20,174 nt of DNA from a virus, in the IMG/VR virus record IMGVR_UViG_3300042691_002005, positions 1 to 20,174 of that record. One strand, 5' to 3'. Shown here in pieces: positions 13,186 through 15,105 of this stretch (position 1 is its first letter; the number at the start of each line of letters is the position of its first letter). The notes below the pieces were generated by a model. It ran no database searches. It worked only from the letters and a program-made list of their open reading frames with translations, and was not told the DNA's origin. A program made the translations under genes and the position numbers.

Positions 13186-14163
13186 TTAAAAGTTTTTGTT
13201 TATAGGTAATTTACTTTGAGTTTCTGGTTTGTATGGATTGCGATCAGCGTAAACACGATTGCCTTTAAAGTCAAGCATATAATACTGGTATTTATCTAAA
13301 TCTAAATACAATTTGTAAACTCCGTTTTTTGATACTCCTTTTGGTTTACTCTTAGCAACTTTCAAATGTACTTCATTTTTTTCAGCACCGGTACCATCTG
13401 CATCTAATAATCCATAAGGTGGCCTCCACGGAATTAATACGCTCAGACCTTTTCTAAACCATACTTGACCTCCTGCAAAATCTCTTGCACTTGGCATCGG
13501 AAAGTAACTTATGTCAGTTCCTGCTATTGTTTTAGCGCTTACCATTGGCTGATCCCTAACGTGATTAATTACGCAATTATGCCTGCCAGTCTTTCTTGCA
13601 TTTTTACGGACCATTCCTAAAATTCTACTCAAATACTTATCTTCTCTGCCTAAATCAGCTTGTATAAATTCCTCGGTAAGTTCATTCCACGGATCAATTG
13701 TTGTTGTATGTATTTTAATACCTTCTTTACGTTCAATTTCATCTACTAAATCGTAAAATTTAGTTATAGTTAAATCCTCATCAATAGGATCAATTACAAT
13801 GAAATGCTCATTTACAAACATTTCAGCACGTACCTGCTCTCCGTGTGTCATTGAGTTTTGACCTTGAACGTATGGCTGACCTATGTACTTATAACATAAC
13901 TCAGAAAATATTTCTGCACTTGATCCAGTTTCCGGAGAAAATACAACGTGATTCCAACCGTGTAAACAAGAAAGGTTTATAAGGAACTCAAACCAAAGTT
14001 CTGTTTTTCCAGATGCGGGTGCTGCTCCAATATACGTGGTACATCCTTCTTTGATTGTATAAGGTAACATATCCCAGCTCCAGCCAATTGATTTGCCTTT
14101 AACATCTACCTGTTGACGTAAAGCAAACATTTCTTTATTTAGGTCTGTAAGTCTTTTATACAT
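13186..14163 (-). CDS. DnaB/RecA-type replicative helicase
   Basis: A 325-residue RecA-fold ATPase. Walker A is YIGAAPASGKTELW at 44-57 (Gly-x-x-x-x-Gly-Lys-Thr), the Walker B strand is IHTTTIDPW at 151-159 with Asp157, and a late motif HNCVINHVRDQP at 195-206 ends a beta strand, as in the DnaB C-terminal domain. The usual DnaB N-terminal domain is absent, so the protein resembles phage single-domain helicases such as those of the gp4/Twinkle group without primase. The sequence immediately upstream is a replisome-organiser-like protein, so the two form a replication initiation module. Strand separation at the phage fork is the likely role. Confidence 0.85.
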   Translation of the reverse strand: MYKRLTDLNKEMFALRQQVDVKGKSIGWSWDMLPYTIKEGCTTYIGAAPASGKTELWFEFLINLSCLHGWNHVVFSPETGSSAEIFSELCYKYIGQPYVQGQNSMTHGEQVRAEMFVNEHFIVIDPIDEDLTITKFYDLVDEIERKEGIKIHTTTIDPWNELTEEFIQADLGREDKYLSRILGMVRKNARKTGRHNCVINHVRDQPMVSAKTIAGTDISYFPMPSARDFAGGQVWFRKGLSVLIPWRPPYGLLDADGTGAEKNEVHLKVAKSKPKGVSKNGVYKLYLDLDKYQYYMLDFKGNRVYADRNPYKPETQSKLPINKNF

Positions 14164-14780
14164 CAGTCAATGATTAAAGTAGGTTGATTAAATTTAGGCT
14201 TGTTTCTATCCTGTTGGTTTTTCTTCCAACGTTCTAAACGGAGTTCTAAATTAAAACTCTTTTCCTTTTCAAACCTCATTTTTTTATCTCGTTCTCCGTG
14301 TTCAGTCCAGTAATCGTAAAATTCACGTACCATAACCTTACCGTATGTATCTACAAAAGAACTTAGTTCAGAAGCAAACTTTTGTTTGCGATCAGCTATA
14401 TTATATTCTTTATCTTTATCTTCTTCTTTAATGCTAGAGCCTTGCTTTAGCGATGCTTTAGCCTTGCTTAAGCCACCCTTACGCCCAGATTCACTGAGTT
14501 TCAATCGTTTAGCTTCAATCTCAATTCTTTCAACATCCAAAAAAGAAATTACAATTTTATTTTTTTTAGTTTTTAAATATTGTTTTTCAATCAATGTATC
14601 CACTATTTCTGAATTACGTAAACGCAACTTAGCCTCTTCAATATTTAAGTTATTAGATCTGTTCCAATACTCAGCGCAAACTCGTATAAACGCTCCTTGT
14701 AATTCAAAAGATTCATAGCTAATATTACCGGTAATCCATTCGGTAGCATTAAACTTAAAAAATGGCAGTTCCTTACTCAT
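14163..14780 (-). CDS. Phage replisome organiser-like protein (DUF1376 type)
   Basis: Starting at ATG 14780 the protein has 205 residues. The N-terminal part, ELPFFKFNATEWITGNIS followed by a helical segment with GAFIRVCAEYWNRS, is typical of DUF1376-like winged-helix domains at the front of phage replication proteins. A variable Lys/Ser-rich linker (about 100-130) leads to a C-terminal DnaD-like helical part with FYDYWTEHGERDKKMRFEKEK. Such proteins bind the origin and recruit the helicase encoded next (ATGA overlap). A TTG at 14792 could extend the frame by four codons, but the ATG overlapping the upstream stop is more likely. Confidence 0.75.
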   Translation of the reverse strand: MSKELPFFKFNATEWITGNISYESFELQGAFIRVCAEYWNRSNNLNIEEAKLRLRNSEIVDTLIEKQYLKTKKNKIVISFLDVERIEIEAKRLKLSESGRKGGLSKAKASLKQGSSIKEEDKDKEYNIADRKQKFASELSSFVDTYGKVMVREFYDYWTEHGERDKKMRFEKEKSFNLELRLERWKKNQQDRNKPKFNQPTLIID

Positions 14781-14958
14781 AGCTTTTTTCAATAAAGTTT
14801 TCTAATGCTTTAAGTAACGTATAAGCTTGTCTTTCATCTAAACAAATTGTTTTTGATGATCCTTCTCCTTCGTAAACTTCAAAACAAATGTGATCTCCTT
14901 TAGATACAATCATCTTGTCTTTGTCGTTATACTGACAATTAAAATGAATATCATTCAT
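14773..14958 (-). CDS. Hypothetical protein behind the structured leader, 61 aa
   Basis: From ATG 14958 this is a 61-residue acidic protein beginning MNDIHFNCQYNDKDKMIVSK, with beta strands (about 4-40) and a C-terminal helix (DERQAYTLLKALENFIEKS). A longer frame opens at 14997, but its first codons form the right arm and U-tract of the intrinsic terminator at 14977-15027, so the ATG at 14958 is the plausible start. It is the first gene behind the structured RNA leader, so it may be controlled by it. No family is recognised. Confidence 0.6.
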   Translation of the reverse strand: MNDIHFNCQYNDKDKMIVSKGDHICFEVYEGEGSSKTICLDERQAYTLLKALENFIEKSYE

Positions 14959-14976
14959 ATTAAAAATTTTAGTAAT

Positions 14977-15027
14977 AAAAAAACCCCTGTATATCATCGC
15001 GGCTGGACTTGCGAATCAATACAAGGG
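14977..15027 (-). terminator. Intrinsic terminator at the end of the structured leader
   Basis: A 9-bp stem (CCCTTGTAT with ATACAGGGG, one G-U pair) has a 26-nt loop that contains half of stem A, and is followed directly by seven U. The long loop suggests that the terminator is conditional rather than constitutive. Confidence 0.55.
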
Positions 15028-15061
15028 TCAATAATACCGTTTGAGTTTATGGTGTCCAGCC
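14977..15061 (-). ncRNA. Structured leader or small RNA with interleaved stems and terminator
   Basis: On the minus strand two perfect or near-perfect stems interleave. Stem A pairs GGCTGGAC (15061-15054) with GTCCAGCC (15008-15001). Stem B pairs CCCTTGTAT (15027-15019) with ATACAGGGG (14992-14984), with one G-U pair, and is followed by seven U (14983-14977). The A-B-A'-B' order allows either a pseudoknot or a switch between an antiterminator and a terminator. It lies between a TATATTTG promoter element and the ATG at 14958. No known riboswitch family is recognised. Confidence 0.6.
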
Positions 15062-15071
15062 AACTCAAGAA

Positions 15072-15105
15072 CAAATATAACTATTTTATTTTAATAGCTG
15101 ATCAA
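15072..15105 (-). promoter_or_regulatory. Probable promoter before the structured leader
   Basis: The minus strand has TTG (15105-15103), a 23-nt spacer and TATATTTG (15079-15072). The -7 element is perfect, while the spacing is at the upper limit. It overlaps the end of the 96-residue gene. A start site near 15065 would place the first nucleotides of the transcript just ahead of stem A. Confidence 0.55.

Follow-up and report, generated by a model that had tools for sequence, protein, structure and literature searches.

A kissing-loop leader RNA ahead of Bacteroidota phage replication operons is a candidate transcription attenuator

The 20,174-base virus record IMGVR_UViG_3300042691_002005 (the window) carries genes resembling those of Bacteroidota phages, including a terminase large subunit, an ERF recombinase, a ParB-like protein, and a helicase-like protein. 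Its minus strand also carries, at 15068-14977, a non-coding leader RNA of about 90 to 95 nucleotides (nt) with the promoter element TATATTTG just upstream and a replication operon downstream. Comparison with homologues indicates that the topology of this leader is a loop-loop kissing complex between two hairpins. We lean, with limited confidence, toward the view that the leader acts in cis to attenuate transcription of the phage replication operon, by a kissing-loop mechanism of the kind represented by the guanidine-IV riboswitch, and it probably controls whether the replication genes are turned on. To judge from Rfam and the literature, it belongs to an undescribed structured RNA family separate from guanidine-IV. 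The elements assigned to the promoter and leader, in the order in which they would be transcribed, are these:

15072-15079, minus strand: Bacteroidota -7 promoter element TATATTTG, assigned by sequence, with +1 expected near 15067 at the base of the first stem
15062-15068, minus strand: 5′ strand of hairpin P1 (TTGAGTT), pairing with 15047-15041 and enclosing the 5′ half of stem A
15054-15061, minus strand: K5, the 8-nt kissing sequence GGCTGGAC in the P1 loop (5′ half of stem A), complementary to K3
15048-15053, minus strand: unpaired 3′ part of the P1 loop (ACCATA), with A..ATA conserved (weighted frequencies A 0.92, A 0.86, T 0.91, A 0.86)
15041-15047, minus strand: 3′ strand of P1 (AACTCAA), pairing with 15068-15062
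15030-15040, minus strand: unpaired conserved linker (consensus AAAGRNRTTATT; window ACGGTATTATT), with TTATT positions 0.86 to 0.98 conserved
15019-15029, minus strand: 5′ strand of terminator stem P2 (stem B), forming 11 base pairs (bp) with 14992-14982
15015-15018, minus strand: 5′ side of the internal loop (TTGA in the window, TGAA in the consensus), part of the conserved purine-rich UGAA/GGAU
15011-15014, minus strand: 5′ strand of stem P3 (TCGC), pairing with 15000-14997 and enclosing the 3′ half of stem A
15001-15008, minus strand: K3, the 8-nt kissing sequence GTCCAGCC in the P3 loop (3′ half of stem A), complementary to K5
14997-15000, minus strand: 3′ strand of P3 (GCGA), pairing with 15014-15011
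14993-14996, minus strand: 3′ side of the internal loop (TGAT in the window, GGAT in the consensus), from conservation across homologues
14982-14992, minus strand: 3′ strand of P2, pairing with 15029-15019
14977-14983, minus strand: U tract (7 T), the expected 3′ end of the terminated RNA, with the last five columns 0.91 to 1.00 T in homologues

An earlier note on this DNA had described two interleaved stems in the order A-B-A′-B′ and read them as either an H-type pseudoknot or a switch in which stem A opposes the terminator. Stem A is present at its full 8 bp (GGCTGGAC at 15061-15054 with GTCCAGCC at 15008-15001), and stem B (CCCTTGTAT/ATACAGGGG) comprises 11 bp, 15029-15019 with 14992-14982, instead of the 9 bp first assigned to it; the seven U after B′ lie at 14983-14977. 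Both stems are real, but the bare two-stem order does not hold, since P1 and P3, which had been missed, enclose the two halves of stem A. The covariation of P1 and P3 about these halves leads us to reject an H-type pseudoknot built from two bare stems. Stem A is a kissing helix between the P1 loop (14 nt, opening with GGCTGGAC) and the P3 loop (10 nt, closing with GTCCAGCC), and the 8-bp K5-K3 duplex has a computed energy of -14.7 kcal/mol. P3 (4 bp) sits on P2 via a 4x4 purine-rich internal loop (TTGA/TGAT in the window), and P2 with U7 shows the anatomy of an intrinsic terminator, a G+C-rich stem base followed at once by the U tract. By this pairing scheme, P1, the kissing helix, P3, and P2 can form together, and stem A need not exclude the terminator.

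A blastn search of the region or of the consensus leader against named phages gave no useful match, and homologues were reached instead through the downstream protein of 205 amino acids (aa), whose relatives were fetched from viral contigs and their upstream sequence taken. About 90 leaders were collected overall. All 53 loci that were fetched via this protein only and had upstream sequence carry a leader (38 of type I, to which the window belongs, 11 of a sister type II, and 4 others); type I calls were made by a parser, the 4 other kissing-plus-terminator leaders were recognised by eye, and none of the loci was selected for the RNA. In a MAFFT alignment of 36 distinct leaders, 94.0% of pair cells are formed, whereas shuffles give 70.6% and sliding the partner by 1 to 3 columns gives no more than 49%, and double-sided changes occur in 23 of 30 pairs. 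A covariance model built without the kissing helix gave 61 matches in 69 pattern-scan sources and 42 in 55 other sources. Across the resulting 88 distinct homologue rows, 97.3% of cells are paired, 25 of 27 pairs show double-sided changes, and such changes total 600, against 163 in shuffles. They are found in 5/5 counted pairs of P1 (99.1% of cells paired), 9/10 counted pairs of P2 (99.3%, many of them G-U), and 4/4 pairs of P3 (98.6%). The kissing helix, whose two segments are paired in 91.9% and 93.5% of cells, covaries though it was omitted from the model, and 18 of the top 20 column pairs by mutual information with average product correction are structure pairs, kissing pairs among them. 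Compensatory changes in both stems, which the earlier note had proposed as a check, are thus found across homologues. The leader is not a product of chance, and its predicted fold is as secure as comparative sequence permits.

The geometry of the kiss is strict, whereas its sequence is diverse. Among 84 parsed leaders, the P1 loop is 14 nt long in 69 and the P3 loop 10 nt in 73, and K5 abuts the P1 5′ strand in 82 while K3 abuts the P3 3′ strand in 81; both kissing strands directly continue a stem strand, which is the geometry needed for coaxial stacking. These leaders contain 26 different K5/K3 pairs, with 666 Watson-Crick and 2 G-U base pairs. The linker between the modelled stems is 13-14 nt long in 77 of the 88 homologues. 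Sequence conservation falls on the unpaired parts, namely A..AUA on the 3′ side of the P1 loop, AAAGRNRUUAUU in the linker, and UGAA/GGAU in the internal loop. Two linker purines (columns 45 and 47 of alignment A2) change in concert, GGNA versus GANG; they form no base pair with the remaining sequence, but behave as though jointly constrained.

The scarcity of G-U pairs in the kissing helix (2/668) and the adjoining replication genes would also fit an element that works in the DNA, either operator repeats or a replication origin, in which K5 and K3 are inverted copies of a protein site that covary as protein specificity drifts. We consider this very improbable, as an operator predicts neither covarying P1 and P3 stems that put both copies exactly in hairpin loops nor the many U-G pairs in P2 on one strand. 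The conserved U tract and the U-G pairs in P2 show that the strand acts as RNA.

The position of the leader relative to its promoter and operon bears on its likely role. The promoter element proposed in the earlier note is present at 15079-15072. Promoters of Flavobacterium psychrophilum carry TAnnTTTG at -12 to -5 (PMC9723704), and this spacing would place the 5′ end of the RNA near 15067, at the foot of P1. The element lies upstream of the leader in 89/89 aligned homologues, an adjacency that arises by construction in loci L083-L159, where the pattern scan demanded promoter and linker, and not so in L002-L055; TTG at about -33 occurs in only 26/89. Downstream of the leader, the operon continues as follows:

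14776-14958, minus strand: first gene after the leader, a 61-aa early protein, start placed from homologous starts in relatives (ATG 14958, 18 nt past the U tract)
14163-14780, minus strand: replication-operon protein of 205 aa (PHROG 19415/29280, unknown function)
13186-14163, minus strand: helicase/primase-helicase-like protein, next in the operon (PHROG 239 primase/helicase, 3.6e-11)

The start of the 61-residue gene, moved to 14958 in the earlier note, is borne out by relatives, in which the homologous open reading frame (ORF) likewise starts some 18 nt past the U tract; their starts lie after the leader, in agreement with a non-coding leader of an early/replication operon. In the loci examined, the first start codon is mostly 16-21 nt past the U tract, which leaves no room for a further promoter between them. 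With the U tract only about 18 nt short of the gene, a transcript begun at this promoter can reach the operon only by reading through P2, which is the layout expected of an attenuator. The 205-aa protein and the first large ORF of 81 of 91 leader loci fall in a single replication-initiator superfamily, and a helicase/primase family comes next in 75. The first small ORF belongs to some 20 different families, and this variety after a shared leader speaks against feedback from a single, fixed first-gene product. Nor do replication genes preceded by such varied ORFs suggest a ligand. A leader peptide was considered and rejected: an AUG lies in P2 or the internal loop of many members and is missing from the window, and there is no conserved upstream ORF.

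These considerations led us to a model of how the leader could work. RNA polymerase would start at the base of P1, which would fold first and present K5. P3 would then emerge, its loop K3 kissing K5 over 8 bp, and P2 would be completed last and, with the U tract, would stop transcription 18 nt before the first gene. The kiss and the zipping of P2 would share no bases, and the full 11-bp P2 would stretch the 13-14 nt linker to about its limit. As a rough estimate, we take P1, the kiss, P3, the internal loop, and P2 to stack to about 32 bp, or about 90 Å, and the linker to span at most about that distance, so that completing P2 while the kiss is held would strain the linker. The kiss and full terminator formation would thus oppose each other mechanically, in the way suggested for guanidine-IV. 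A trans factor (a phage or host protein, or a small molecule) could read the P1-kiss-P3 core together with the unpaired A..AUA and AAAG..UUAUU strands, and would shift the balance between kiss and terminator, setting the amount of replication initiator. The comparison establishes the fold of the leader, its covariation, its position, and its spread, whereas termination at P2/U7, its regulation, the sign of any effect, and a factor that would exert it are inferred.

The idea that stem A opposes the terminator survives in altered form, since the two share no bases and any antagonism would be mechanical, acting through the linker. A classical antiterminator, in which the linker pairs with the 5′ strand of P2, was tried and rejected: complementarity is 5.05 compared with 5.05 in shuffled sequences, and no such columns are among the top covarying pairs. 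A mechanical switch is more plausible than a classical two-helix switch. The terminator-like 3′ end, described earlier as conditional, is conserved, and its anatomy suggests the conditional behavior.

Several observations weigh against regulated attenuation. Neither the covariation ranking nor the linker test revealed a conserved alternative helix that excludes the terminator stem, and a simple terminator scan, under a rule that allows loops of 3-8 nt only, misses P2. The 8-bp kiss, at -14.7 kcal/mol, hardly requires a ligand to form. Early transcripts begun at another promoter upstream may also run into the leader. The support consists of sequence comparison, and the trans factor is hypothetical. 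A kiss strong enough to form unaided, a very stable fold from +1, and the absence of an identified partner would also suit a constitutive partial terminator combined with a 5′ cap, in which the fold shields the mRNA 5′ end and gives fixed, low, unregulated expression. This we consider unlikely: a plain hairpin would do, whereas the strict loop geometry, conserved unpaired strands, and internal-loop motif imply recognition or a mechanical role of the kiss. A folded RNA without an obvious partner, placed directly after an early promoter, might instead load onto RNA polymerase and cause later terminators to be ignored (processive antitermination). The HK022 put RNA makes RNA polymerase ignore later terminators, and put elements are not known to have a terminator-like 3′ end of their own. 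The leader does have one, conserved in nearly all members, and we regard processive antitermination as highly unlikely here.

Sister type II leaders provide a further view of the kissing sequences. They are found in 11 loci with copies of the downstream protein up to 84% identical, and since type II replaces type I before such closely similar proteins, the leaders are interchangeable. In type II leaders, P1 has 3-4 bp, the kissing loop 6 nt, and the internal loop the sequence AGUA/GAA, which we take to resemble the loop-E motif. An unselected pattern scan gave 27 distinct promoter-bearing type II members, and K5 and K3 are exactly complementary in 27/27. In 19 of these, designated type IIa, K5 ends in CAG, and an exact third copy of K5 directly before the start codon matches K3 in every case (19/19, with the five K5 variants GTGCAG, AGGCAG, GAGCAG, AAGCAG, and GGGCAG); the third copy is absent from the remaining 8. 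These leaders, to which alignment A3 is restricted, are located as follows:

L317-L354 (e.g., L002:4906-5008 and L340:2900-3009): type II leaders with a third kissing copy before the start of the first gene

The third copy means that K3 could pair with either the P1 loop or the start-codon region, which suggests, for type IIa, a switch acting on translation of the read-through RNA. The type I leader of the window has no third kissing copy downstream, and its kissing 8-mers are not enriched elsewhere in the phage.

The third copy, matching K3 in all 19 type IIa leaders across five variants and recalling seqA/seqB/seqC of phage P4 (PMC4825925), together with the diversity of kissing sequences (26 pairs in 84 leaders), could also point to a leader-derived small RNA acting in trans. 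The terminated RNA of about 90 nt would pair via K3 (or K5) with other leaders or with read-through mRNA, limiting replication or excluding related phages, as for P4 CI RNA, P1 C4, and Gifsy-1 IsrK. We judge this to be unlikely, though with a real chance of being right. Type I leaders, including that of the window, lack the third copy, and further K5 or K3 copies that might serve as trans targets are not in excess in type I phages (6 K5 copies elsewhere in the phage, against 6.5 expected). In the loci examined, the leader was not found away from replication operons, and it occurs in only 1/301 Flavobacteriaceae genomes, which makes prophage-based immunity unlikely as its main role. A free small RNA, also entertained in the earlier note, is not favored because the leader always lies immediately before one type of operon, that for replication. 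By analogy with P4 CI RNA and IsrK (PMC4825925), the terminated RNA may nevertheless act in trans as well. A more speculative and decidedly doubtful reading is that the leader represents an RNA class by which a phage counts or recognizes itself, in which the drifting kissing sequence would serve as an identity tag and leader-leader kissing (in type IIa, of K3 with the start-codon copy) would couple the amount of leader RNA to initiator expression.

We compared the leader with known RNAs. A cmscan of the window against all families of Rfam 15 gave no match at E<=1, in keeping with the earlier note's remark that no riboswitch family with this order of segments was known, and a literature search found no prior description. 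For guanidine-IV, too, there is no Rfam 15 match in the window at E<=1, the presence of its model in the library not having been separately confirmed. The guanidine-IV riboswitch (mepA) resembles the leader in having a 5′ hairpin P1, a linker, a terminator hairpin P2, and a P1/P2 loop kiss that competes with terminator completion, and in it the elongation of P2 shortens the P1-P2 linker, opposing the kissing loop (PMC11611296). In the leader, too, the P1 loop kisses a loop carried by the terminator hairpin, and this kissing helix covaries. Unlike that of guanidine-IV, the kiss of the leader comprises 8 bp and is displayed by an additional hairpin, P3, set on a purine-rich internal loop, and the leader precedes replication initiator/helicase operons rather than guanidine exporter genes.

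Phage RNAs offer partial parallels. CI RNA and seqA-seqB-seqC of satellite phage P4 belong, like the leader, to a replication-operon leader with premature termination, and one P4 segment is complementary to an upstream and a downstream copy (PMC4825925); this arrangement is absent from the type I leader of the window, which lacks a third copy, and present only in type IIa (19/19). P4 CI is a processed RNA that serves as a trans-acting immunity factor, whereas the pairing of the leader is intramolecular, within a compact fold. Gifsy-1 IsrK resembles the leader in being a short transcript from the start of an operon that stops at its own terminator, with a read-through mRNA made as well; unlike the leader, it comes from Salmonella and its trans action has been demonstrated, and its description mentions no kissing architecture (PMC4825925). 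The P1/P7 C4 antisense RNA (RF01695) is a phage RNA thought to act via complementary loop sequences near the ribosome binding site (PMC12197685), but it targets the antirepressor (ant) mRNA, and the window has no Rfam match to C4 (RF01695). The Flavo-1, Bacteroid-trp, and Bacteroidales-1 motifs were found by covariation in a comparative scan, some in Bacteroidota (PMC2864571), and none matches the window in Rfam 15.

Among cultured phages, the covariance model detects the leader in Cellulophaga phi19:1 (E 1.6e-9) and Flavobacterium morran9-1 (E 0.0013), and leaders were recognised by eye or parser, without a statistical test, in phage 11b, phi13:2, and Nekkels_1. The leader of Cellulophaga phage Nekkels_1 (L362:3340-3480), examined by eye, apparently has two kissing pairs, TTGGAA/TTCCAA and GTCTAAC/GTTAGAC, and a 17-bp terminator stem. 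In the single one of 301 Flavobacteriaceae genomes that carries it, the leader again precedes a replication-like gene; it is a phage element, rarely integrated. A chromosomal RNA was rejected on the same count (1/301) and because a pattern scan of genome contigs gave chance matches only (1 weak model match in 80 loci).

The surroundings of the leader show additional features. The 61-aa protein weakly matches PHROG 1377, of unknown function. Proteins of about 60 residues that look unrelated in sequence and share a similar strand-strand-helix look occupy the first slot after the leader in the window (14776-14958) and in many relatives, and possibly form one diverged early-protein family. In L052 (4407-5001), the leader and the replication gene are separated by an HNH-endonuclease-like reading frame, apparently a mobile gene that inserted immediately downstream of the leader. 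Some 0.5 kb before the leader, many relatives among L002-L055 have a gene with a DnaA-domain-IV-like motif (G..HHATIIHGLR; median position -531 in 52 loci), and a similar gene of phi13:2 is annotated DnaA; the window has an unrelated 96-aa ORF at this position. A second promoter-plus-terminator unit lies at 16507-16430 on the minus strand of the window, between the lysis-side genes and the first early genes. It consists of TACATTTG, about 45 nt, and then AGGGTTGCC AGTTGAAAGC GGTAACCCTTTTTT; the loop AGTTGAAAGC recurs in relatives with changed stem letters, and the unit may be another small RNA or leader.

The RNA is widespread in Bacteroidota phages, many from Flavobacterium-like hosts and cultured ones included, and suggests that, in a group of phages with largely unstudied gene regulation, passage from infection to DNA replication is controlled at the level of RNA. 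The layout of kiss against terminator offers clear quantitative mutants, and the triple copy of type IIa makes a switch between termination and translation directly testable. If the leader does serve self-recognition, it would mean replication control or exclusion of sister phages in Bacteroidota. As an attenuator, it would carry the kissing-loop principle over from the metabolite riboswitch in which it is known to the replication operons of phages.
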